Shown: positions 3,350 to 27,290 of the stretch, one piece after another
Layout of the letters: every line of letters begins with the position of its first letter
Numbering within the stretch: the first letter of the stretch is position 1
Assembly (NCBI RefSeq): GCF_001402915.1
Contig: NZ_CP012945.1
Location: 806,001-870,000, forward strand
Reading direction: 5' to 3'
DNA: 64,000 nucleotides
Source of the DNA: Devosia sp. A16
GTDB taxonomy: Bacteria > Pseudomonadota > Alphaproteobacteria > Rhizobiales > Devosiaceae
The notes under the pieces: model-generated
Told to the model about the DNA's origin: nothing
What the model saw: only the letters and a program-made list of their open reading frames with translations
Databases searched by the model: none
Translations under genes and position numbers: made by a program

Positions 3350-3655
3350 ATGCCTCGTGCCGGCAGCAAGCCCACAGCCGTCCCGCCGCCGAACCCGGAC
3401 TCGACCTGGCCGCGCAACGCGCCGGAAGATCCGGCGCAGACGCCGCTGGATTTCCTGCTCGCCATCATGCGCAACCCCGAGATTCCGCGCAGCGAGCGGG
3501 TGGATGCGGCCAACAAGGCGGCGCCGTACCTGCATTCCAAGCACGCCACGGTCGACCATCGCTCGTCGGATGGCAGCATGCGGCCGACCATTATTTTCGA
3601 GGGGATGCCGAGCGATGCCCGCAGCGAACAGCGCGACGAAGGGAGCGACAAGTAG
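3350..3655 (+). CDS. Probable phage terminase small-subunit-like protein
   Basis: A 101-residue hydrophilic protein placed immediately before, and overlapping by 41 bases, the large terminase gene, where a small terminase or packaging accessory protein is expected. The central stretch PLDFLLAIMRNPEIP followed by RVDAANKAAPYLHSKHA is a pattern seen in short phage proteins preceding the large terminase. No helix-turn-helix is obvious, so the small-subunit assignment rests mainly on position. The ATG at 3350 has AAAGG six bases upstream. Confidence 0.55.
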   Translation: MPRAGSKPTAVPPPNPDSTWPRNAPEDPAQTPLDFLLAIMRNPEIPRSERVDAANKAAPYLHSKHATVDHRSSDGSMRPTIIFEGMPSDARSEQRDEGSDK

Positions 3656-7425: not shown

Positions 7426-7728
7426 CTACCAGATGCCCTTGCCAAGCGAAGGAAACAGGTCATCCCAATTCGGGTTCAGGTCCCGGAACAGCTCGATCTT
7501 CCAAGCACGCTGCCACGTCTTGATCTGCTTTTCTCGCGTGATGGCTGCCTCGATCGAGTCGTGTGGCTCGAACCACACCAGCCGGGTGACATCGTACTTG
7601 CTGGTAAAGCCGGCGACGACGTGCTCGCGATGTTGCGCGACACGACCCATCAGGTCGTTGGTGACGCCGGTGTAGAGCGTCCCGTTTCGCCGCGAGGCGA
7701 GCAGGTAGACGAAGTAGGTTTTGTGCAC
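7426..7728 (-). CDS. GIY-YIG nuclease family protein
   Basis: A 100-residue stand-alone GIY-YIG domain of the short COG2827 type. FVYLL (6-10) and LYTGVT (18-23) form the signature strands, followed by catalytic Arg29, His33 in RVAQHR, then REKQIKTW and a C-terminal NPNWDDLF. It lies antisense between the portal and scaffold genes. The GTG at 7728 has GAGGGGG upstream; the alternative ATG at 7755 lies inside palindromic copy A3. Such proteins cut or nick DNA, but the target is unknown. Position beside a repeat and flanking inverted repeats suggests a mobile unit. Confidence 0.8.
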   Translation of the reverse strand: MHKTYFVYLLASRRNGTLYTGVTNDLMGRVAQHREHVVAGFTSKYDVTRLVWFEPHDSIEAAITREKQIKTWQRAWKIELFRDLNPNWDDLFPSLGKGIW

Positions 7729-8843: not shown

Positions 8844-10045
8844 ATGGCTCTTTCTCCCAACCACCCCAATAATGAAGTGATCAAGTTCCGCCAGGATGTC
8901 GCCTATGACTTCCTGCGCTCGTCGCGCTTCGACCCCTATATGGGCGACGACTCCACCTCGGTGATCGTGCGCATGTCGGACCTCGAGGCCGACGGCAAGG
9001 AAATCCGCGTGCCGCTCGTCACCCAGCTCTCGGGCGATGGCGTCGGCGCCGGGACGCTGCGCGGCAACGAAGAGCAGATCGACAGCTACGGCATGCCGCT
9101 CTGGGCCGACTGGGCCCGAAACGCCGTGGCCAATAACCGGGCGCAGAACAAGGAGAGCTCGTTCTCGGTGCGCTCCACCGCCCGCAGCCTGTTGCGCGGC
9201 TGGTCCAAGCGCATCGTCCGTGACGACCTGGTCGATGCGCTGCTGTCGATCCCCACTTCGGCGATGCAGGCCGGCCGCTTCGGCAACCCCGGCAACCGCG
9301 TCAACGGCATCAAGTGGTCGGCGGCGACCGCCGGCAACAAGAATGCCTGGGTCACCGCCAACCCCGACCGCGTGGTGTTCGGCTCGGCGCTCTCCAACTA
9401 CTCGACCACCTTCGCCACCGCGGTGGGCAATGTCGAGCGACCAGCGACAAGATGTCGGCGGCAGTGGGCAGCCTCTTGAAGGACCAGGCCAAGCAGACCG
9501 GGGTCGATCCCAACAACCCCGGCGTCTATAACGGCCGGCCCAAGATCAGCCCCTATATGGAGGCCGAGGGCGACCAGGAATGGTTTGTCTGCTTCGTCGG
9601 CGCCCGCGGCTTCCGCGACCTCAAGGCCGACCCGGTGATGACCGCCGCCAACCGCGACGCCCGCAACCGCGAAGGGGGCGATCCGACCAAGGCCAACCCG
9701 CTCTTTACCGGCGGGGCGCTGGTCTACGACGGGGTGATCTATGTCGAGATCCCCGAGATCACCCAGCGCCTGCTGCTGAAGGGCGCCGGCGCCGCGGGGA
9801 TCGATGTCGAGCCGGTGTTCCTCTGTGGCCAGGGCGCGCTCGCCTATGCCCTCGGCCAGATGCCGCGGCCCACGACGCTGGAAGACGGCGACTACGACTT
9901 CGTCACCGGCATGGGCATCGAGGCCCAGTACGGCGTCGGCAAGATCGCCAAGGCCCCGCTGGCGGCGGGAGCCTCGGCCACCATCGGCAGCCTCGTCGAC
10001 TGGGGCATGGTGACCGGGTTCGTCGCCGGGGTGGGGAACAGCTAA
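8844..10045 (+). pseudogene. Phage major capsid protein, interrupted by a frameshift
   Basis: Two frames together encode one capsid protein of about 400 residues. The first (8844-9479) starts MALSPNHPNNEVIKF and contains VPLVTQLSGDGVGAGTLRGN, typical of the Phage_capsid_3/N4-gp56-like fold. It reads VGNVE near 9434 and then goes out of frame. The remainder, from ATSDKMSAAVGSLLKDQAKQ to VAGVGNS, lies in the frame ending at 10045. A single missing base near 9435-9437 explains the break. No slippery heptamer is present, so an indel (real, or a sequencing error) is likelier than programmed frameshifting. If real, no full-length capsid protein is made. Confidence 0.82.
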
Positions 10046-11518: not shown

Positions 11519-11857
11519 ATGCCCAGGACCCGCCACGACCTCGTCAACCGCGCATTGGCCGAACTCGGCGTGGTCGGCGCCGGGCAGACGGCTGCGGCCG
11601 AGGATTTCGATGAGATCGACAAGGCTGTTGCCCCCGTGATGAGCGACCTCGCCACCCGCGACATCTGGGTGTGGGGCGACCCCGATGCCTATGACGACGA
11701 TGCCTTCGACCATCTCGCGGTGCTGCTCGCCAATGCCCGGGCCCGCGCCTTCGGCCTCGCGTCCGACGAGCAGAAGCGGCTCCTCGCCGAACAGCGGCTG
11801 CGTGGCCTCAAGCCCACCATCCTTTCCGGCCGCACCCAGGAAATCGAGTATTTCTGA
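11519..11857 (+). CDS. Head-tail connector / tail accessory protein (P22 gp4-like)
   Basis: A 112-residue, mainly helical protein starting MPRTRHDLVNRALAELGVVG. The opening helix with an R-(D/T)-L-V-N-x-AL-x-x-LGV pattern and the short length fit P22 gp4-type connectors that extend the portal ring after packaging. The ATG at 11519 has CAGGAG upstream. The stop overlaps the next start (TGATG), so the two are translationally coupled. Confidence 0.6.
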   Translation: MPRTRHDLVNRALAELGVVGAGQTAAAEDFDEIDKAVAPVMSDLATRDIWVWGDPDAYDDDAFDHLAVLLANARARAFGLASDEQKRLLAEQRLRGLKPTILSGRTQEIEYF

Positions 11858-13275
11858 TGCCCCCGATCAGCTGGCCTACCGGCACCGCGCCGGGGGTGAA
11901 CCCTACCGAAACCGGCGGACGGCTGATCAATGCCATCGCCGAGCGCGCTCCAGCCGGCTCGCGCAGCGAGATCGTCTGGCGGCGCGTCGCCGGGCTGATC
12001 GCCCGCTTCACCACCACCCAGACCGCCATTCGCGGCGCGCTGCTGGTGGGTTCGGTGCTCTATGTCGTCTCCGGCAACCGGGTCTATTCGATCACCTCGA
12101 GCTATGTGGTGACCGAGCTCACCGGCACGGTGGGCGGCAGCGGCCCCGTCACCATGGCGCGCAACATGAAGGCGCCGGTGCCCGACGTGCTGATCGTCCA
12201 TTCGGGGGGCATGTCGCAGATCAACATCTCGGGCGCCTCGGTGGCGGTGTTCAGCGATGGCGACCTGCCCTCGGTCAATTCGATCTCGTGGGTCGATGGC
12301 TATTTCATCGTCACCGCCGAGAGCGGCCTCGTCTACCAGTCGGGGCTCAACGACACGACGTTCGCCTCGGTCGACCGCACCACGGCCGAGGCCGACCCCG
12401 ACGGGCTTTACCGCGCCATCGCCTCGGGCAGCGACCTGATCCTGATGGGCACGGCCTCGCTCGAGTTCTATGCCAATGCCGGCAACCCCACCGGTTTTGC
12501 ATTCAACCGTTCGGTGGTGGTGCCGATCGGGCTCAAGGCCCCCTATGCGGTGGCCGGGTTCGAGCCGGGCTTTGCCGATACGGTGATCTTCGTTGCCAAC
12601 GACAACACGGTGCGCAAACTCCAGGGCTATGAGCCGGCGCCGATCTCGGGGCCGGACCTCAACCGGCTGATCGAGGCGGTGAGCAACCCCGCCGAGCTCG
12701 TCGCCTGGGTCTACCAGGCGGCCGGGCACGCCTATTGGGTGCTGAGCGGGCCGGGCTGGACCTGGGTCTACGACGTCTCGACCGGCAGCTGGCACGAGCG
12801 CCAGAGCTATGGCTTCCCCGATTGGCGCTGCCGCTACGGCGTCGCCGCCTGGAGCAGGTGGTTCACCTTCGACCTCGAAAGCGGCACGGCCTTCGAGCTG
12901 AACTCGACAGCAAAGCGCGACGGGGCGCGCCCGCTGGTCTGGACGCTCCGCTCCAACCAGGCGCACCGTTTCCCCGGGCGCGCCGTGGTGCACAAGGCGA
13001 GCTTCGATTTCGAGACCGGCATCGGCCTCGACGCCGGTATCTCGCCGATCGAAACCGACCCGGTGGTGCGGATCCGCTGGTCCGACGATGGCGGTCGCAA
13101 CTGGGGCAACCCCTTGACCAGGCGGCTGGGCACGCAAGGCGAAGACCTGCCCATCGACATCAACAATGCCGGCCTTACCGGCCGCAAGGGCCGGATCTGG
13201 GAGATGAGCATCTCCGACCCCATCGAGATCGCGTTCTTCGGTGGCGCCATGGATATCGAGGAGCGCGCCGCATGA
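11857..13275 (+). CDS. Packaged DNA stabilisation / tail hub protein (P22 gp10-like)
   Basis: A 472-residue beta-rich protein with repeated blade-like segments (for example GSVLYVVSGNRVYSI, GYFIVTAESGLVYQS, TVIFVANDNTVRKLQ, WVYDVSTGSWHERQS). Length, position after a gp4-like connector and the early ETGGRLINAIAE stretch suit the P22 gp10 family, which plugs the portal channel and joins the head to the tail needle or spikes. Start and stop overlap both neighbours, a sign of tight coupling in the late operon. Confidence 0.72.
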   Translation: MPPISWPTGTAPGVNPTETGGRLINAIAERAPAGSRSEIVWRRVAGLIARFTTTQTAIRGALLVGSVLYVVSGNRVYSITSSYVVTELTGTVGGSGPVTMARNMKAPVPDVLIVHSGGMSQINISGASVAVFSDGDLPSVNSISWVDGYFIVTAESGLVYQSGLNDTTFASVDRTTAEADPDGLYRAIASGSDLILMGTASLEFYANAGNPTGFAFNRSVVVPIGLKAPYAVAGFEPGFADTVIFVANDNTVRKLQGYEPAPISGPDLNRLIEAVSNPAELVAWVYQAAGHAYWVLSGPGWTWVYDVSTGSWHERQSYGFPDWRCRYGVAAWSRWFTFDLESGTAFELNSTAKRDGARPLVWTLRSNQAHRFPGRAVVHKASFDFETGIGLDAGISPIETDPVVRIRWSDDGGRNWGNPLTRRLGTQGEDLPIDINNAGLTGRKGRIWEMSISDPIEIAFFGGAMDIEERAA

Positions 13276-13649
13276 GCACCTCGGACAGCCTCAGGCCGAT
13301 CCCGCATCCGAGCGCCCGGCTGATCAGCGCCGACGGGACAATCGCAAAACCCTGGTACGACTGGCTGAACCAGCTGGCGGAAAAGCTCGCCGAGCTGACC
13401 CCGCTCGAAGGCGCCGCGACCTTCGATCCGCCCAGCCTCGCCGATGGCGCCGGCGCCACGACGAGCGTGACCGTCCCCGGCGCGGCGCCCGGCGACTTCG
13501 CCACGGCCGCGTTCTCGCTGCCGACGGGGGGCCTCACCGTCACCGCCTGGGTGAGCGCCCAGAACACCGTTTCCGTCCGCTTCCAGAACGAGAGCGGCGG
13601 CCCCCTCGACATCGCCAGCGGCAGGCTTGCCGCGCGCGTGCAGAAATAG
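13272..13649 (+). CDS. Hypothetical phage protein, 125 residues
   Basis: The start overlaps the previous stop (ATGA). The N-terminal half contains KPWYDWLNQLAEKLAEL, a short amphipathic helix of the kind found in tail or connector proteins. The C-terminal half has a beta pattern (GGLTVTAWVSAQNTVSVRFQN) reminiscent of a small virion-surface domain. No enzyme motif is present. Its place between stabilisation and ejection-type genes suggests a minor virion component. Confidence 0.55.
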   Translation: MSTSDSLRPIPHPSARLISADGTIAKPWYDWLNQLAEKLAELTPLEGAATFDPPSLADGAGATTSVTVPGAAPGDFATAAFSLPTGGLTVTAWVSAQNTVSVRFQNESGGPLDIASGRLAARVQK

Positions 13650-13658
13650 GAGCCTCGT

Positions 13659-14378
13659 ATGGCTGACTTCTTCGAAACCATCGGCGACTGGCTGGGGCTC
13701 AACAAGGGCAAGGCGACGCAGAAGGCCGCCGAGCAGAACCGCGGCGTCATCGACCAGTTGGCCAGGACCGGCCGGCCGATCATCGAGGGCATCCAGGGCG
13801 TCACCGGCGATTACCTGGATCTCGGCAAGCTCGGCGCCGACCGCTATGCCGATGCCATGGGACTCAACGGCCCCGACGGCTACGCCCGGGCCGAAGCAGC
13901 GTTCCGCGCCGGGCCGGGCTATCAGTTCGCCCTCGACCAGGGGCTCGACGCGGTGGCCCGCAAGGGCTCGGCCCTGGGCCGGCTCGACAGCGGCAATACC
14001 GATCTCGACCTGATGCGCTACGCCACCGGCTATGCCGACCAGGCCTGGGGCAACTGGATGAACGGGCTCTCGGGCTACAACAACATGTACGGCGCCGGCG
14101 TCGGCAACGACGTCGCCGCCCGCGGCCTCGGCCTCGATTTCGAGAGCGGCCTCGCCTCCAGCTACATGGGCGCCAACAACCAGGTGGCAGCCGGCAAGGA
14201 AGCCGGCCAGGGCGCCATGCTCGATGCGCTGGGCTCGATCGTCGGTATCGCCGGCCAGGCGTTCGGCGGCGGTGCCTTCGGCGGCTATGGCGGCTTCGGT
14301 GGCGGGCAGACGCCGCTCAACTATGGCGCCCCGCAATATACCGGCCAGCTGCGCCCCGGCTACCAGGCCGGCGTCTGA
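13659..14378 (+). CDS. Putative DNA ejection / internal virion protein
   Basis: A 239-residue protein with an amphipathic N-terminus (MADFFETIGDWLGLNKGKA), a helical middle part containing ALGRLDSGNTDLDLMRYATG, and a glycine-rich hydrophobic C-terminal region (about 190-225: GIAGQAFGGGAFGGYGGFGG). This mix fits small ejection proteins of podoviruses, which leave the head and cross the cell envelope at infection. The GGAG-like site before the ATG and nine-base spacing from the previous gene support expression in the late operon. The family assignment is inferred. Confidence 0.55.
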   Translation: MADFFETIGDWLGLNKGKATQKAAEQNRGVIDQLARTGRPIIEGIQGVTGDYLDLGKLGADRYADAMGLNGPDGYARAEAAFRAGPGYQFALDQGLDAVARKGSALGRLDSGNTDLDLMRYATGYADQAWGNWMNGLSGYNNMYGAGVGNDVAARGLGLDFESGLASSYMGANNQVAAGKEAGQGAMLDALGSIVGIAGQAFGGGAFGGYGGFGGGQTPLNYGAPQYTGQLRPGYQAGV

Positions 14379-14413: not shown

Positions 14414-14872
14414 ATGGCACTTACCTATCCCGAATATGCGGCCTTGCAGCCGTCGCAGACCAGGCTCACCGACCTGCTCGATCTGTGGAACCAGGGCGTC
14501 GCGCAGGGCAAAGCCGATCGCTACGAGCGCGAAGCGCCGCAGCAGTTCGCGAATGCGGCAGCCCCGCTGTCGGAGTTCGGGCTGACGATGCCGCCCGATC
14601 AGCTGCGGGCGCTGTTCGCCAACCCGCAGACGCGCCCGTTCGCGATACAGATGGTGCAGGAGGCGACGCAGCGTCGAGCCGATGCCTATGCCTCGTCGGG
14701 CCAACGCGAGGAAACGGCGCGGACGCCGCGGCCCGAAGCGCCGACAAATCCACTGGTGTGGCGCGGGGGCGGCATTCGCTACCTCCGAGGCGGCGATTAC
14801 CGCTTCATCGGCGGTGACGCCGACGCCGGCGACCCCGCAAATTGGAGAGACTCTGATGGCCGGCCCCTGTGA
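14414..14872 (+). CDS. Hypothetical phage protein, 152 residues
   Basis: A hydrophilic protein beginning MALTYPEYAALQPSQTRLTD after an AAGGAGG ribosome site. The C-terminal part is rich in glycine and aromatic residues (RGGGIRYLRGGDYRFIGGD). It stands between two ejection-type genes, which suggests a minor virion protein. I do not recognise a family. Confidence 0.5.
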   Translation: MALTYPEYAALQPSQTRLTDLLDLWNQGVAQGKADRYEREAPQQFANAAAPLSEFGLTMPPDQLRALFANPQTRPFAIQMVQEATQRRADAYASSGQREETARTPRPEAPTNPLVWRGGGIRYLRGGDYRFIGGDADAGDPANWRDSDGRPL

Positions 14873-15038: not shown

Positions 15039-16610
15039 ATGGTTGGTGTCCCGTTCAACCCTCGGCAGCCGACAGGGCTGGTCGATACCTCGCACGCCGC
15101 GGCCAACGCCGCCCAAGATCCGTTGCTCAGCCTTTACTTGGCCAACAATGGTTTCGAACCCGCCGGCGCCAAGCCGGACTTCACCGAGAACCTGGCTCGT
15201 GCTGCCGGGCAAGGTTTGACGTTCGGGTGGGGTGACGAACTGCTTTCCTTTGGCCAGGCGGGCCTCGACCAGTTGCTGCATGGCGATGATGGCAAGGACT
15301 TCTGGCAACGCTACGACTCCAATGTCGCTCGCGAGCGCCGCAACCTCGAAGCCTTTCGTCAGGAAAACCCCATTGCGGCCTATGGTGCCGAGATCCTGGG
15401 GTCGCTCCCGACGGCTTTTTTTACAGGGGGAGCAGGCACAGCCACCGGCTTGGGCCGGATCGGCACAAACCTCCTGGTCAACGGGATACAGGGCGCGGTC
15501 TACGGCGCCGGCTCGGCCACGGGCGACACGCTTGCCGACCGTGGCTGGGGTGCCCTGATTGGCGCGGGAACCAGCGCCGGGACCGGCGTTTTGCTCGACG
15601 GTGCTACCGGAGTAGTCGGCCAGCTCTCCAGATCCCGAGCTGCAACGAAGGCGGATGCCGCCGCGCCAAAGAGCGATGGCCTTGGTGCGATGTCGAAGCA
15701 GGACCTCGGCGCGGCGAAGAGCGCCGGCGTGCAAATCAAACCGATCGCCACCACCCTTCTCCGGCAGGATCTCGATCGGTTGCTCGCCGACGAGGGGATG
15801 CTGGTGGATGGAGAACTGGTGGGTATCTATGACAAGGTGCGCGACGCAATGGGGCACCTGGACCAACTCTCCGACAAGCCAATGACCTTCAAAGCATTCG
15901 ACTTGCTTGAGCGTAGTTTCCGGGAGGCAGCGAGGAGTCCGAACGACGAAGAAGCGAAGCTCGGGAAGGCCCTGTTGCAACAGCTGGATCAGTTCCCGGA
16001 AAGCCTGCCACAGAACGCCTTCAGCGGCTCCGGCGACGGCATCGAAGCGGCGACCAGATGGCGGTCGAGCATCAACCTGCGAGACCGGCAGAAGCGGACC
16101 AAGATGGTCGAAGAGATGATCGACAGCGCCAAAAGGTCGGGTTCGTTCGCCAAGACGCTGCACGAGAAGGTGGTGAGCCTCTTGGACGACAAAACTGCCC
16201 GCGGCTTGTTCAGTGATACGGAGATCAAACAGATGGAGCGCTTCGCGCAAGACAGGGGCGCTCTCGGTGGGCTGATGCAGACTCTGTCAGGTGATGGCGT
16301 GTGGGGAGCGGTTGCTGGGGCTGTCCCGGGTGCTTTGACGACGATGATCGATCCGTACGCAGGGCTCGGCGCGGCATTCCTTGGAGCGGCCGCAGGGGCG
16401 CCAACAGTGCGCACGGTTCTCAACAGAGGTGCATCCCCCTTCGGCAAGGAACTGCGCGCCAGCGTTGCATCGGGCAACCCGCCTACTCCGACTAACCCGT
16501 TGGACCTACGCTGGCTCGCACCGGGCCTCGGCAACACCGAGCACGTGCGCGAGCCTCTCCATATCATCGTCCGGGGCGGCACGAACAGCCAGACGCCGCC
16601 TCCCGCATGA
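15039..16610 (+). CDS. Putative phage ejection / internal virion protein, 523 residues
   Basis: A long protein with a glycine/alanine-rich hydrophobic zone at about 118-185 (AYGAEILGSLPTAFFTGGAG, then GWGALIGAGTSAGTGVLL) and another near 420-450 (YAGLGAAFLGAAAGAP). They flank a charged helical middle. Such alternating membrane-active and soluble segments are typical of the largest ejection protein in podoviruses, and the gene follows the smaller ejection-type gene. The ATG at 15039 has AAGG seven bases upstream. Base composition is slightly less GC-rich than upstream structural genes. Function is inferred from architecture and place. Confidence 0.55.
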   Translation: MVGVPFNPRQPTGLVDTSHAAANAAQDPLLSLYLANNGFEPAGAKPDFTENLARAAGQGLTFGWGDELLSFGQAGLDQLLHGDDGKDFWQRYDSNVARERRNLEAFRQENPIAAYGAEILGSLPTAFFTGGAGTATGLGRIGTNLLVNGIQGAVYGAGSATGDTLADRGWGALIGAGTSAGTGVLLDGATGVVGQLSRSRAATKADAAAPKSDGLGAMSKQDLGAAKSAGVQIKPIATTLLRQDLDRLLADEGMLVDGELVGIYDKVRDAMGHLDQLSDKPMTFKAFDLLERSFREAARSPNDEEAKLGKALLQQLDQFPESLPQNAFSGSGDGIEAATRWRSSINLRDRQKRTKMVEEMIDSAKRSGSFAKTLHEKVVSLLDDKTARGLFSDTEIKQMERFAQDRGALGGLMQTLSGDGVWGAVAGAVPGALTTMIDPYAGLGAAFLGAAAGAPTVRTVLNRGASPFGKELRASVASGNPPTPTNPLDLRWLAPGLGNTEHVREPLHIIVRGGTNSQTPPPA

Positions 16611-16846
16611 GTGGAGCGCGTCTTGGGACACTTCAGCGGTGACCTGGTGACTGTGACGGGCGGCGCGGCCACGCAGCAGCCGCCACGGGCCCGCCCGTCG
16701 AGCGGAGCACAAAATTGCGCTAACCGCGGTTCCTTCGCTGCCGCGACAAACAACCCGTGAGAACCGGGCTGCCTTCACCGGCCAACCCCGTTCGCACAGA
16801 GGCAATTGAGGGACTTCGGCAACAAGGGCCCGACCCATGACTCGGA

Positions 16847-17233
16847 TCAAACCACCGTTAGTAGTCGGACGAAGCAATAAATCGCCAGCAGCAACCCAAC
16901 AGAACTTCCCAACAAGCTCTTTGCGTTCTGGTGAAATTCAAACGACTCACGAAACGTTCTCATCTCAAGGCGTTCACTTTCAGTAATGAGATCCAGCGCT
17001 GTCTTTATCTCAACAACCGCACCCGCCGTCTGAAACGCCAGGCGGTTGTGCCCCATCTGAAGGTAAAGAAACGTTCCGGCAATCGCGACGTAGAGTATGC
17101 CGCCGATGGACACGATCATTACATCAGTGCGATCTGTAACTCGCCCAAGGACGTACCAAAAAGCCAGTGGGATAGGCAGGCCGGTTGCCAGGGCCCACAG
17201 GTACGAGAAGACCAAACCCAGCGTCCGCCTCAT
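16847..17233 (-). CDS. Small membrane protein, paralogue 1 of the antisense cassette
   Basis: A 128-residue protein with membrane segments at about 5-29, 37-58 and 106-127, and a charged helical loop (about 75-105) between the second and third. The motif VLGRVTDRT at 28-36 and the layout are shared with the gene at 17518-17934. The ATG at 17233 is chosen because GGGAGA lies seven bases upstream. A perfect inverted repeat, TATGTTC-GG-GAACATA, lies just upstream. Not recognised; the context (antisense cargo in a phage late operon) hints at superinfection exclusion or defence, which is inference. Confidence 0.65.
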   Translation of the reverse strand: MRRTLGLVFSYLWALATGLPIPLAFWYVLGRVTDRTDVMIVSIGGILYVAIAGTFLYLQMGHNRLAFQTAGAVVEIKTALDLITESERLEMRTFRESFEFHQNAKSLLGSSVGLLLAIYCFVRLLTVV

Positions 17234-17249
17234 GCAACGATCTCCCATG

Positions 17250-17265
17250 TATGTTCGGGAACATA
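17250..17265. promoter_or_regulatory. Perfect palindrome upstream of membrane paralogue 1
   Basis: TATGTTC and GAACATA flank a GG centre, directly 5' of the ribosome site of the gene starting at 17233. A related palindrome sits at the same distance before the paralogue at 17934. It looks like a repressor operator, or an RNA hairpin near the transcript start. The rest of 17266-17517 shows no gene. Confidence 0.45.
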
Positions 17266-17517
17266 ATGGCGCTGACACAAGCTGGGAAGGTCGCGCGAAC
17301 CGCAGTTCCCGTCGTTGTAGCGGCAAAACCAGGATCGCCCCGATCTCGGACTGTCGGCCTGGCTGTCGCGCAACGGCCACGATGATCTTGCTGCTCAGCT
17401 TGCGGCCGGCAAATTGACCCCGCGCGCAGCATATGAGGCGTCACGGCAGCGGTCACCCGCGAGTTGGCCCTTTTGACGGGGCCTGCCATCCGGCAAAAGG
17501 GCCGCGCACCCAATGGG

Positions 17518-17934
17518 TTACCCCCCAAAAAGAGAAAAAAGCGGCGCGAAACGCATAAAACACAGCACGAATATGATCAGCGACGTTAGCTGCAGTATCC
17601 CGACCCTATACTGACGCTGAGAGACTTTTTCATTAAAGAATTCTTTCAGCTTTCTGTCCTCATTACTGATGTCAAGACTTTTGTTACCATCTCTGACCGC
17701 AAAAAAGGCCGACTCTGTAACAATCTTCACTACAGTGAGCGTTTGATACTGCAGTAGGTACATCAAACTCGAAAGCACACCGTACATCATTCCGGCTACG
17801 GTAACAATCAGTATCTCGGTACGGTCTGTGGCACGCCCCAGTACATACATAACGAGGTAGATGCCAAACAATCTGGATCCGAAGAGCCAGATGTACGAGA
17901 CAACCAATCGTTCCCTTTGCGAAAACGAAAACAT
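17518..17934 (-). CDS. Small membrane protein, paralogue 2 of the antisense cassette
   Basis: A 138-residue protein with membrane segments at about 11-32, 41-63 and 111-133, and a charged loop rich in Lys, Glu and Asn between 80 and 110. It shares VLGRATDRT (31-39), segment order and loop type with the gene at 16847-17233, so the two are diverged paralogues. The ATG at 17934 follows CCAGGAGAGG. Its DNA is clearly less GC-rich than the surroundings, which suggests later acquisition. No known family is recognised. Confidence 0.65.
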   Translation of the reverse strand: MFSFSQRERLVVSYIWLFGSRLFGIYLVMYVLGRATDRTEILIVTVAGMMYGVLSSLMYLLQYQTLTVVKIVTESAFFAVRDGNKSLDISNEDRKLKEFFNEKVSQRQYRVGILQLTSLIIFVLCFMRFAPLFSLFGG

Positions 17935-17952
17935 GCAACCCTCTCCTGGTAG

Positions 17953-17965
17953 TGTTGGGCCAACA
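17953..17965. promoter_or_regulatory. Palindrome upstream of membrane paralogue 2
   Basis: TGTTGG-G-CCAACA lies 19 bases 5' of the ATG at 17934, the same relative place as the palindrome before paralogue 1. Both share TGTT and AACA outer arms, though centres differ. It could be the binding site of a common repressor. Confidence 0.4.
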
Positions 17966-18111
17966 TAGAGATGGCGGGGTCGGCAGTGAAGAGGCCGCCG
18001 TGCCGGTGCCACTTCGGGCATCTACATCAAGACTTTGGCGGATGAAGAGGCCCAACACCCAAAGCAGGAACACGGCCACCGACGCCACAGCCTGAGCCAC
18101 CAGAGACACGA

Positions 18112-18261
18112 CTAGGCGTAAGGTGCGCCGACCCCGACAACTATGAGAGCGCCAGCGATCACGCCGACCCCCACACTCATGGCAAGCGGATCGGTGACCC
18201 CAAGCCACTCGAATACGGCATACATCCACTCCTGGACCTTCACGAGTGTGAGTTCCCCCAT
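18112..18261 (-). CDS. Possible single-span membrane peptide, 49 residues
   Basis: The frame starts MGELTLVKVQEWMYAVFEWL and ends with a hydrophobic segment (about 27-46: AMSVGVGVIAGALIVVGVG). The ribosome site is weak. It lies in the 443-base gap between two clearer membrane-protein genes on the same strand, and its membrane span fits that cassette. It could equally be a remnant or a non-coding stretch. Confidence 0.3.
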   Translation of the reverse strand: MGELTLVKVQEWMYAVFEWLGVTDPLAMSVGVGVIAGALIVVGVGAPYA

Positions 18262-18377
18262 TTGCACCAATACGCCACGCTAGGGGGCTAACTCCTTGTT
18301 GCGGCAATGCCCGCACGCAATCAAACCGGGAGCTCGCGCTGTCCGGACCACCGGGAGCGTACGACCGGGGCAAGGCT

Positions 18378-19019
18378 TCATCCTCTTACGTTGCGGAGCC
18401 ACGTTGCGAGGGAGACGCCCAGGCCGCCGCCGACAAGGGCGCCGGCGATCACTCGCCCCTCCGATGAGAAGACGTCCCGGAACGCATACAGGGTTACCCC
18501 GAGGGCGAGCACCACGAGCAACCCCAGGAAGCCGAAGAGTGGTCGGTTCGGGATATACAGCAACGGCCGCCGCATGGCCCATTGCGCCATGACCACCTGG
18601 TTTCCGACGAAAAAGCCCAGCATTGCTGAGACCTGCGCAAGCCCGTCCTGATCCTCAAAATCCCCGCGGTAGACAAAGGTCGCCACCAAAGCCAGCGCCG
18701 CGGCGGCGGCAAAAATGTACGAGATGTGCGGCCCCTCGGATTGGCGCATCATGTCCATTAATGGGTCAGATGACTTGTAGCGGTCGGGCCTCGTGTCAAC
18801 GTCCTCGTCACGCGCCACAGGAGGCGGCCTCCAGAGCTTTCTTGCGACCCAAACGACGGTCCAAGGAGCCACGCCAAATAGCAGCACCAGCAGTGGGTTC
18901 AGCTTGACCTGGGAGGCGGTTGTCGACGCGAACACCCCTACCAGGACCGCGATCACATACGCGCTTTCCCAGAACATGGTCTCGCCGCGCGTCAGCACGG
19001 AACGCTTTCGCTCAGACAT
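18378..19019 (-). CDS. Multi-span membrane protein of the antisense cassette
   Basis: A 213-residue protein with about five or six membrane segments (roughly 17-33, 41-58, 99-117, 127-146, 160-178 and 187-207) and a cytosolic-looking loop at 62-98 rich in Arg and Asp. AAGGGGGA precedes the ATG at 19019. No transporter or enzyme signature is visible. It is followed and preceded by other small membrane-protein genes on the minus strand, opposite to the flanking virion genes. Confidence 0.65.
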   Translation of the reverse strand: MSERKRSVLTRGETMFWESAYVIAVLVGVFASTTASQVKLNPLLVLLFGVAPWTVVWVARKLWRPPPVARDEDVDTRPDRYKSSDPLMDMMRQSEGPHISYIFAAAAALALVATFVYRGDFEDQDGLAQVSAMLGFFVGNQVVMAQWAMRRPLLYIPNRPLFGFLGLLVVLALGVTLYAFRDVFSSEGRVIAGALVGGGLGVSLATWLRNVRG

Positions 19020-19068
19020 TCATCCCCCTTGGAAACACCTGGGCGCTGGCACGCGCTTCTTGATACCA

Positions 19069-19338
19069 TCACCACCGGCGCGGCCCTTTCCCGCCGAGGG
19101 ACCGCTCGAACAAGCGGTCGCCAAGCCAGTTCTTCACGCTCCCCGCAGCCCATCCCCAGAAGAAGGACATGGCAGCAGCTGACACCGGGGACTGAAGCAG
19201 TGTGTTGTCGGATTTCGGCATGTGGAGGAACGGGCCGAGAAACACCAGCACCCCCACTACGCCGCCTGCAACGGCCCCCCATGGCAGCGGGTTTGTTCGC
19301 TTCGTCCCCGGCTTCGGTCGCTGATCGGGATCTGTCAT
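19069..19338 (-). CDS. Two-span membrane protein of the antisense cassette
   Basis: An 89-residue protein with a proline- and lysine-rich N-terminal tail (1-19), probable membrane segments at about 20-38 and 51-68, and a basic C-terminus (GGKGPRRW). A strong GGGAGGAAA ribosome site precedes the ATG at 19338. Size and shape resemble holins or small exclusion proteins, but the late cluster has other holin candidates at 27.3-27.9 kb. Confidence 0.6.
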   Translation of the reverse strand: MTDPDQRPKPGTKRTNPLPWGAVAGGVVGVLVFLGPFLHMPKSDNTLLQSPVSAAAMSFFWGWAAGSVKNWLGDRLFERSLGGKGPRRW

Positions 19339-19405
19339 CGTTTCCTCCCTCTATTGCTGGACCCGACATAAACCGGGCTCGGACACACCCGCATCACCAT
19401 CACGT

Positions 19406-19783
19406 TCAGCTCGTGGTCTGGCCTTCGCTGAGCTTGCCGCAGGGCAGATACATGAGCCACACGGCGATCTCCTTGAGCCAGCCGCCGCGCCGGACTTTCG
19501 CCTCCGCCCAGCTGTCGACGCCCAGACACCAGTCAAGATGCGCCCCCGACATGCCGAAGCGCTCCGACGCGACCTGGTACAGCGCCGCAACGACTTCCGC
19601 GCAATCCTGCGGCGGCGCGCAATAACCTTCGTCGACCGGAAGCTTCTGCATCGAGGCGTGGCCCATTCCGACTGTCCAGGTAAACAAGCCGTAGCCGCCC
19701 CCAAGCACGATCGCCAGCAACAGCACAATTGCCGGTCCGCGCGACCACCAAGAAGCCGTCTTGACACTCCCTATATCAGTCAC
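19406..19783 (-). CDS. Single-span anchored protein with cysteine-bearing outer domain
   Basis: A 125-residue protein with one membrane segment at about 17-35 and a C-terminal domain of about 85 residues containing four cysteines (in GYCAPPQDCAEV, LDWCLGV and LPCGKL). These could form disulfides if the domain is periplasmic. The GTG at 19783 has GGGAGGGC upstream and is preferred over the ATG at 19912, which would run into the tail gene on the other strand. It is the first gene of the antisense cassette. No family recognised. Confidence 0.6.
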   Translation of the reverse strand: MTDIGSVKTASWWSRGPAIVLLLAIVLGGGYGLFTWTVGMGHASMQKLPVDEGYCAPPQDCAEVVAALYQVASERFGMSGAHLDWCLGVDSWAEAKVRRGGWLKEIAVWLMYLPCGKLSEGQTTS

Positions 19784-19868
19784 AGCGCCCTCCCCCAGAG
19801 CTGAGTCCCCGCAGTATTGAATGCACGGGCAGTTGTGGCGCGTCCATCCCTCCCCCGGAGACTTCCCC

Positions 19869-20870
19869 ATGGCAGCCATCTGGCCCGGCTCGCGCGTGCC
19901 CAATTTCGGCATCGGCGACCAACTGTATTTCTACGACACCGCCACCTCGACGCCGCAGGTGGTTTATGCCGATGGCGCGCTGAGCGTGGCGCATGATCAG
20001 CCGATCCTTGCCGATGCGCGCGGCATGTTCCCGGTGATCTACCTGAGCCCGGCGCCGGGCAGCTACCGGCAGAAGCTCACCGACGCCAATGGCGTCCTGA
20101 TCTTCGACGACGACGATATCGACGTGCCGCAATCGGCCGATTACGAGCCGCCCGACCCGGGCGTCACCGACCCGACGCTGCTGGTCACCACCGGCATGCG
20201 CATCGGCTACTATGGCACGGCGGCGCCGGCCGGCTGGGTGCGCTGCAACGGCCGGACGCTGGGCTCGCCCACCTCGGGCGCCACCGAGCGCGCCAATGCC
20301 GATTGCCAGGCGCTGTTCCTCCACCTGTGGACCGCCGACGCCACGCTCGGCGTCAGCGGCGGGCGCGGTGCGTCGGCGGCTGGCGATTGGGCCGCCAACA
20401 AGACCATCGCCCTGCCCGACTATCGCGACCGCATCGCCATCGGCCTGGGCGGCATGGGCAACGCCGATATCAACCTGATCCCCGATGCGACGGTCGACGG
20501 CGGTGAAACCAACAACACCCTCGGCGCGACCGTCGGCTCTGCCGCCCAAACGCTCACCGCCGCGCAAATTCCTGCCCACAAGCACGATGCCGGCTCACTG
20601 CTGATGCCCAACCACGGCCACCCGGCCAAGATTTCGGCCCGCAACGACAATGGGCCAGTCCAGACCAACTACGGCGGCATGGGCCTCATCGGCATCGGCA
20701 CCAACTCCTACCCCGCCTATTCCGGCACGATATCGGACACGGCTGGTCAGCAGATCGGCGGCTCCGGCACCGCAGCGATTGGCGGCGCCACAGCAGATAG
20801 CACGGGGGGCGGCGCCTCGCACCCCAACGTCCAGCCCTCGTTGTTCGAACTCGTGATCATCAAGCTCTGA
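19869..20870 (+). CDS. Phage tail collar domain protein
   Basis: A 333-residue tail protein. Residues about 107-135 (GMRIGYYGTAAPAGWVRCNG) and ALPDYRDRIAIGLGGMGN near 180 are the signature of the phage tail collar fold. IPAHKHDAG and PNHGHPAKI follow, histidine-bearing loops common in trimeric tail fibre tips. The C-terminus ends HPNVQPSLFELVIIKL, a usual ending for this family. The ATG at 19869 follows CGGAGA. It probably binds the cell surface during adsorption. Confidence 0.82.
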   Translation: MAAIWPGSRVPNFGIGDQLYFYDTATSTPQVVYADGALSVAHDQPILADARGMFPVIYLSPAPGSYRQKLTDANGVLIFDDDDIDVPQSADYEPPDPGVTDPTLLVTTGMRIGYYGTAAPAGWVRCNGRTLGSPTSGATERANADCQALFLHLWTADATLGVSGGRGASAAGDWAANKTIALPDYRDRIAIGLGGMGNADINLIPDATVDGGETNNTLGATVGSAAQTLTAAQIPAHKHDAGSLLMPNHGHPAKISARNDNGPVQTNYGGMGLIGIGTNSYPAYSGTISDTAGQQIGGSGTAAIGGATADSTGGGASHPNVQPSLFELVIIKL

Positions 20871-26585: not shown

Positions 26586-27290
26586 ATGCCTTCCAACGTG
26601 CCCGCGGGCGCGGCGATACTGCTTGACTTCATCGCCAGGCTCGAAACCAACCGCCAGGGCCAGGCGGCCTATGAAACCATTATCGGCTATCGCAACGAAA
26701 AGCCCGGCTGCTTGCCCAGGCCGATCACCGAGATGACGCTCGAGGAGTTGCTGGCCGAGCAGAAGCGCTGGGTGAAGAGCCTCAGGGCACCGAGCGGCGC
26801 TGCCGGCCGCTACCAGATCATCCGCCCGACCTTGCTGAGCCTCATCGCCGAGCTTGGCGTGCCGCTGAGCGCGACCTTTTCGCCCGAGCTGCAGGATCGC
26901 TTCGGCCTGGCGCTGCTCGAGCGGCGCGGCTGGAGCCGGTTCGTCGCCGGGACCTTGCAGCTGCGCGACTTCGGCAACCGCCTGGCGCGCGAATGGGCGA
27001 GCTTTCCGGTGCTCGCCGACCAGCAGGGCGCGCATCGCGCCGTAAAGCGCGGCGAAAGCTACTACGCCGGCGACGGCATTAACGCCTCGCTGGCGAGGGC
27101 CGCCGATGCCGAAGCGGTGCTGGCTAAAGCGCTGGACGCAACGACCCGCCCCGAGCCTCCCGCCCCTGTGGCCCCGACCGTCCCTGCACCTGAGCCGCGC
27201 AACGGCGGCATCGCCGGCTGGCTGCTCCTCGCGCTGGTCGTCGCGGCGGCGTTCGGCTGGGCCGCTCTCAGCATCCCGCTCCCGTTCTGA
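26586..27290 (+). CDS. Phage endolysin, lysozyme-like, with C-terminal membrane anchor
   Basis: A 234-residue protein. Residues about 8-150 have the lambda-R/lysozyme-like pattern: LLDFIARLETNRQGQAAYET with candidate catalytic Glu20, then SGAAGRYQIIRPTL and LQDRFGLALLERRGW. A proline/alanine linker (about 182-203) leads to a hydrophobic segment at about 207-226. The C-terminal membrane span is unusual for a soluble endolysin and may tether or time it. The ATG follows CCGGAGA. It cleaves peptidoglycan for lysis, together with the small membrane proteins downstream. Confidence 0.7.
   Translation: MPSNVPAGAAILLDFIARLETNRQGQAAYETIIGYRNEKPGCLPRPITEMTLEELLAEQKRWVKSLRAPSGAAGRYQIIRPTLLSLIAELGVPLSATFSPELQDRFGLALLERRGWSRFVAGTLQLRDFGNRLAREWASFPVLADQQGAHRAVKRGESYYAGDGINASLARAADAEAVLAKALDATTRPEPPAPVAPTVPAPEPRNGGIAGWLLLALVVAAAFGWAALSIPLPF

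Follow-up and report, generated by a model that had tools for sequence, protein, structure and literature searches.

The closest described system is SieA, the superinfection exclusion protein of phage P22. According to PMC10883804, SieA acts on the products of the neighbouring ejection genes, is a single gene occurring in three types, is reported from enterobacterial genera only, and carries the motif FxRYPxEAxxFNK. The P22 record places sieA on the minus strand at 13336-13830, after the end of gene 16 (13313) and ahead of gene 9, and annotates a promoter for it. Here we analysed a stretch of 64,000 nucleotides of Devosia sp. A16 (NZ_CP012945.1, positions 806,001 to 870,000; hereafter the window), part of a 5.03-Mb single-contig genome, in which six minus-strand genes for predicted membrane proteins, A-F, fill the slot that separates a gp16-like ejection gene from a collar gene in a P22-type virion cluster. 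We read this row as a stack of exclusion-like genes that evolved as partners of ejection proteins, are expressed in the lysogen and were stacked by module replacement, and we give this reading a probability of roughly 0.57.

A preliminary description of this DNA had reported five clear antisense genes and a possible sixth between the ejection-type gene and the collar gene, and all six are present on the minus strand. The features of the row are listed below by position in the window.

16847..17233, minus strand: gene A, 128 amino acids, predicted membrane protein with three spans, GC content 0.53, nearest partner of the type I gp16-like gene
17260..17288, minus strand: promoter-like site of A, TTCCCA-17-TATGTT, 26 nucleotides before the ATG, by pattern match
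17336..17473, plus strand: remnant X, conserved, ending 45 bases before the stop codon of B and found beside B or a dead B in three other phages
17466..17503, minus strand: inverted repeat behind B, a possible terminator with arms of 10 and a loop of 18, found by eye with no tool score
17518..17934, minus strand: gene B, 138 amino acids, predicted membrane protein with three spans, GC content 0.45, paralogue of A
17962..17990, minus strand: promoter-like site of B, TTCACT-17-TATGTT, 27 nucleotides before the ATG, by pattern match
18112..18261, minus strand: gene C, 49 amino acids, short relative of the family nearest to type III gp16-like genes
18378..19019, minus strand: gene D, 213 amino acids, predicted multi-span membrane protein
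19069..19338, minus strand: gene E, 89 amino acids, predicted small membrane protein
19406..19783, minus strand: gene F, 125 amino acids, GTG start, predicted to be membrane-anchored

A single gene of markedly low GC content had been remarked on; B (0.45) and A (0.53) are the low ones, C-F range over 0.60-0.65, the gp16-like neighbour is at about 0.63, and genes further out are at 0.67-0.71. Hydropathy predicted at least one span in all six proteins (1 to 5 per protein), and a purine-rich site precedes the start of A, B, D, E and F, in agreement with the membrane spans and ribosome sites described earlier. D has 5 spans by hydropathy and 6 in a relative, and it is split in G007. A and B are 31% identical (E 3e-12) and share a signature around YVLxRVTDRTEVLIV, which is common to nine sequences. 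We then compared A, B, D, E and F of the window with their relatives by the ratio of nonsynonymous to synonymous substitution rates (dN/dS). The results showed values of 0.13-0.61 for A, 0.25-0.52 for B and 0.09-0.34 for E in the pairs with a value, and families G and I of the relatives also stayed within 0.09-0.61. F gave a single pair (with G007; seven differences, dN/dS 0.41), and D gave the weakest values (0.52, 0.53 and 1.03 in three pairs). The frames are more than chance, since they are kept in relatives and dN/dS is below 1 for most tested pairs: A, B and E, like G and I of the relatives, are genuine genes, D is less certain, and E is, judging by its substitutions, under purifying selection. 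The possible sixth gene, C, is present but looks truncated, because it aligns with its family over only about 30-36 residues and then ends early.

Near-identical virion genes were found at five Devosia genome loci, and what the slot holds differs from one related phage to the next, some lacking genes that others have there. The sample comprised 24 slots behind gp16-like genes from 15 phages with a covered slot, the window's included. Before counting, we dropped L022 (100% identical to the window in the compared genes), L027 (apparently the same as G004) and the partial loci L023, L031, L032, L034 and L035, which lack slot coverage; L083 was also outside the analysis. The slots hold 60 called minus-strand genes, 57 of them with a predicted hydrophobic span, and 12 called plus-strand open reading frames (ORFs), none with a span; the 60 genes are not independent because some phages share modules. 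These antisense membrane genes sort into about a dozen families. Many phages also have a second ejection module between a 112-residue gene and the stabilisation gene, with antisense membrane genes of its own (loci L018, L021, L024, L025, L026, L028, L029, L033 and L049); this site is empty in the window.

The family of the antisense gene nearest to the gp16-like gene was then compared with the type of that gp16-like gene across the 24 modules. Types were grouped by BLAST, and types and antisense families were assigned by hand, family L being loose. Type I was accompanied by family A in 5/5 modules, type IV by G in 2/2, type V by J in 2/2 and type VII by L in 2/2; the one type VI module had I, and two single types had L-like genes. 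Type II was nearest to A, A, H, H and L, and type III to C (four modules) and K (one). Collapsing G002s1, V629s1, G004s2 and V629s2 left 20 modules, in which a family was shared by 11 of 18 same-type pairs, against a mean of 2.64 and a maximum of 10 in shuffles (P = 5e-5). With uncollapsed modules the figure was 21 of 33 pairs, against 4.78 by shuffling. These results suggest that the nearest antisense family tracks the gp16-like type, a relation that appears to be new here.

The same pairs recur in a broken form. Between the distal antisense genes, the plus strand carries broken C-terminal pieces of gp16-like genes. A piece of an intact gp16-like type lies at the left, within 600 bases, of 13 of the 38 distal antisense genes, and 17 have a piece when remnant X, a window-derived query, is added; V629, which shares modules with G004, was excluded from this search. 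Reversed queries gave 0/38, and 20 letter shuffles of the regions gave 0 each. Where the antisense family has an intact partner elsewhere, 8 of 9 pieces were of the partner's type: I with VI (four cases, one with a broken I, and the V206 case resting on 16 residues), J with V (two), G with IV (one) and A with I (one, with a broken A; A is also nearest to type II elsewhere). The score falls to 6 of 7 independent cases when the module common to G004 and V182 is counted once. The remaining 4 of the 13 are D genes, a family without an intact partner, beside pieces of types VI and II (two each, one event each).

Antisense genes are open beside a dead partner in G004 (J and I), V206 (I), V182 (J) and V444 (G and I), and B in the window and in V206 is probably in the same situation. 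Dead antisense genes occur too: A and B in V444, B in V002, I in V182, and D in G004 and V182. Contig V303 has its gp16-like gene in two fragments (93% and 84% identity), yet its A is 98% identical to the window's, with D directly after it; B and C were therefore inserted between A and D in the window or lost in V303. Open antisense genes beside dead stubs fit protection against outside particles better than help for the phage's own virion, which is not proof of the former. The evolutionary pattern is well supported in this phage group, and its broken pairs are new here. Where the preliminary description saw a single system, the cassette is better taken as a stack of genes that were acquired separately, some of them tied to an ejection-protein type.

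Remnant X was found in four of five phages with B, namely beside B in the window and V206 and beside a broken B in V002 and V444, and was absent at B of G010. The window's own match arises by construction, because X was read from the window. No further copies were found in genus genomes or viral contigs. From its place and strand, X may be the C-terminus of a gp16-like protein.

We also looked for promoters of the antisense genes. The pattern TT[GC]NNN-17-TA[TCA]NNT occurs upstream of genes of families A, B, C, G and L. It was counted at 17 of 41 antisense genes and 1 of 175 virion genes, and 200 shuffles gave a mean of 0.27 and a maximum of 3. A generic Escherichia coli weight matrix also separated antisense from virion upstream regions (P = 3e-9). 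The site is missing before A in G007, and also before some other genes of families C and L. In addition, a perfect inverted repeat, TATGTTC-CC-GAACATA, lies at 17258-17273 on the minus strand and overlaps the -10-like site of A; none turned up upstream of the other A genes examined.

That the proteins match no known family was borne out: the six proteins gave nothing convincing against Pfam, PHROGs, NCBIfam and PADLOC, with 0 PADLOC families at E up to 1. As to lysis families, the six proteins had no PHROG match below 0.04, and the endolysin lies elsewhere, at 26586-27290. C was considered as DoxX_2 and dropped (best Pfam match 0.0048, 17.5 bits against a cut-off of 26.3). A tblastn search with B, D, E and the gp16-like gene gave no match in 50,697 phage records, a single protein each of families I and G likewise had no match in phages, and A gave none in 72,556 plasmid records. 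An I-family search of 397 genomes of the order was also empty, a result without evidential weight. The AlphaFold2 model of A (predicted local distance difference test score, pLDDT, 77.9; predicted template-modelling score, pTM, 0.54) has a kinked helix and a long helical hairpin, with helices at 2-31, 35-79 and 85-127 that are compatible with three spans; fold searches with it among viral and PDB structures gave nothing at E below 0.001. The model of D was uninformative (pLDDT 43.7). A profile of A and B against PDB sequences reached TMCO1 (0.014), MJ0480 (0.34) and FtsB (0.4 and 0.59); we set these weak matches aside as probable coiled-coil similarity.

Relatives of B were present in 4 of 19 genus genomes, the window's own included, and in the same four among 136 family genomes; in the order, the A/B profile matched 1 of 397 genomes, the window's own. 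The stabilisation protein was found in 6 of the 19 genus genomes, again counting the window's own. Among viral-contig loci, the stabilisation protein was found at 14, the gp7-like protein at 13 and the A/B profile at 7, largely on the same contigs. Homologues scattered through chromosomes in housekeeping roles were not seen, and in the searches made A/B relatives occurred only in this phage group.

The likeness to P22 SieA lies in the minus-strand slot between gp16 and the following tail gene, beside the ejection genes, and, for A and B only, in a small three-span protein; C-F differ. A promoter is annotated for P22 sieA, whereas the sites here are promoter-like. The six proteins did not match phrog_7745 (SieA) at E up to 1, a family that SieA itself hits at 9.2e-109, and by inspection the SieA motif is absent from the A and B translations. 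SieA is one gene, whereas here up to six stand in a row, drawn from about a dozen families, tied to the gp16-like type and interspersed with gp16-like pieces. Among 41 SieA records in phages, 40 are at least 99% identical, which leaves too little variation there to show pairing. By its layout the cassette would work like SieA without being a member of the SieA family.

The row also resembles phage morons, and its earlier description as a moron-type cassette holds in its opposite strand, variable content, promoter-like sites before A and B, and odd GC content. Unlike random cargo, it is recurrently coupled to one virion gene. Orphan immunity genes are known from bacteriocin and polymorphic-toxin arrays, and here too immunity-like genes are kept beside C-terminal pieces of a decayed partner; the difference is that the partner is a virion DNA-ejection protein and the immunity role is putative. 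The best match of the stabilisation protein comes from Pam5, whose slot also contains two antisense ORFs (45 residues without a span and 128 with a predicted span), while VvAW1 and DSL-LC05 have no antisense ORFs behind the ejection genes. Among 11 order-level regions, four have small antisense ORFs in the slot and one has a 302-residue antisense gene. In the open-access literature, among the matches listed, no titles or abstract openings described stacks of antisense genes paired with ejection-protein types.

That the proteins sit in the membrane, are expressed in the lysogen, touch ejection proteins and block DNA entry is our inference. Each gene would encode a small inner-membrane protein made by the cell carrying the integrated phage, and A and B at least would probably have their own promoters. 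Once a related particle has docked, its gp7-, gp20- and gp16-like proteins would form a conduit, and the membrane protein would interfere with the gp16-like, and perhaps the gp20-like, part and keep the DNA out. A new ejection module would arrive from the left with its antisense partner, and the old gp16-like gene would decay to a C-terminal stub. The old antisense gene would often stay and protect against ejection types lost from the cell's own phage. In the window, the resident gp16-like gene of type I would be the partner of A, and a lost type X probably that of B. The exclusion half of the earlier proposal of exclusion or defence stands as the function that the P22 layout and the gp16-like coupling would support best.

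Several observations weigh against the exclusion reading. A and B cannot be placed as SieA homologues, the A/B profile scoring SieA at 7.0 bits. PMC10883804 also reports that the same phages are excluded by two P22 SieA types with only 24% identity, so the precedent does not predict strict specificity. The pairing of types II and III is loose, the A family supplies the nearest gene for both type I and type II with A clades cutting across the two, the pairing shuffles ignore common descent, and physical adjacency alone could hold pairs together. Among the pieces, the single miss is a K gene beside a weak 19-residue type VI piece, D adjoins pieces of two types in relatives, and no piece lies beside 21 of the 38 distal genes, among which are the window's C, D, E and F and the other distal C genes. 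One D pair has a dN/dS near 1. The promoter pattern was picked after the sites had been seen, in related sequences; a stricter consensus scan of 16500-20000 gave no promoter, with 1.2 expected by chance, and the promoter-like site is absent from all D, E, F, H, I, J and K genes and from the window's C. Finally, the X profile matched none of 819 long ORFs at a meaningful score, intact gp16-like proteins included, and this slightly lowers the odds of the exclusion reading and of the attack-and-immunity code set out below.

Among the alternatives, an unlikely one that nonetheless survives best is that these are unrelated lysogenic-conversion genes, serving the host envelope or fitness from a permissive slot, with the gp16-like pairing a product of hitchhiking. 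The mosaic of about a dozen families, the want of a clear partner for D, E and F, and the different small antisense ORFs in the slot of other Hyphomicrobiales prophages (4 of the 11 regions) agree with it, whereas the predicted spans of 57 of the 60 called genes and the recurrence of the same pairs as broken modules do not. Self-immunity proteins, or folding or assembly partners of the phage's own gp16-like protein, would likewise have a membrane character and be paired with the gp16-like type in intact and broken modules. Such a partner would not need to persist in the six antisense genes that are still open beside pieces of the partner's type, nor to have a promoter-like site of its own rather than co-expression with the late genes, and we regard this role as quite improbable. 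Small membrane proteins of prophages are often of the abortive-infection or depolarising type, and some of the genes could be effectors of this kind triggered by infection; with no PADLOC match at E up to 1 and a pairing with ejection type that such effectors would not lead one to expect, we think this very improbable. A role of the convergent transcripts as antisense RNA, with silencing of ejection or collar genes in the lysogen as the main effect and the proteins secondary, is scarcely credible, since the convergent layout (stop codons -17 to +391 bases apart in 22 modules) is set against purifying selection on the proteins and against overlaps with the gp16-like gene at only 4 of 22 nearest genes, by just 4-17 bases.

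The virion cluster around the row runs from the terminase start at 3615 to the endolysin end at 27290 with genes in the order of P22, followed by two small genes, up to 27896, without a PHROG match. Its features that bear on the slot are as follows.

11857-13275: stabilisation protein like gp10/Hc3; 51 phage records matched, all below 60% identity, the best listed at 38%
13659..14378, plus strand: gp7-like DNA ejection protein (phrog_598 'DNA ejection', 8.9e-9)
14414..14872, plus strand: small protein of 152 residues in the place of gp20, from its position and the sequences of relatives
15039..16610, plus strand: gp16-like ejection protein, type I (phrog_5880, 7.7e-17; phrog_21712, 8.5e-5)
19869..20870, plus strand: tail protein of collar or fibre type, the boundary of the slot (phrog_8763 'tail protein', 1.8e-39)
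26586-27290: endolysin, away from the slot

A relative of the window's gp16-like gene matches phrog_26400 'DNA ejection protein' (8.7e-15). The protein in the gp20 place has no PHROG or Pfam match, and in relatives its C-terminal part changes with the gp16-like type in sequences compared by eye. The gene in the coat-protein place (8844-10042, named by position only) consists of two overlapping frames, 8844-9554 and 9425-10042; a relative's 400-residue protein spans both, open copies exist in relatives, and the window's gene appears to be broken. No integrase or replication gene was noticed in the gene list or found among 10 proteins of the window (3615-27896 and flanks) run against PHROGs. The chromosomal locus is the same in the window and G007, and a different one is common to G002 and G004. 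Integration may have been lost, or the element may have been domesticated like a gene transfer agent. A 100-residue minus-strand ORF at 7426-7728, between the portal gene and the next virion gene, is also present in V182 and shortened in V444; we take it to resemble a GIY-YIG nuclease, possibly mobile. In the D. insulae copy (L021, 4249-5664) the stabilisation gene matches in two pieces and seems broken.

A broader and more tentative proposal, which we hold to be possible though short of even odds, is a polymorphic code of attack and immunity between ejection proteins and antisense membrane proteins, with arrays of orphan exclusion genes. The swapped module would comprise the C-terminus of the protein in the gp20 place, the gp16-like gene and the antisense partner, many phages would carry ejection modules of two types, one at each of two sites, and the gp16-like pieces would record the order of lost types. 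With a coat-place gene that looks broken and no integrase seen, the cell would keep the array for its own protection. The P22 authors call SieA-like recognition of very divergent ejection proteins 'difficult to understand' (PMC10883804). About a dozen families, several of them sorted by ejection type, come as intact pairs, broken pairs and orphans, which makes specificity directly testable. Position gives a route to finding exclusion genes, and immunity arrays may exist for DNA ejection as they do for toxins.

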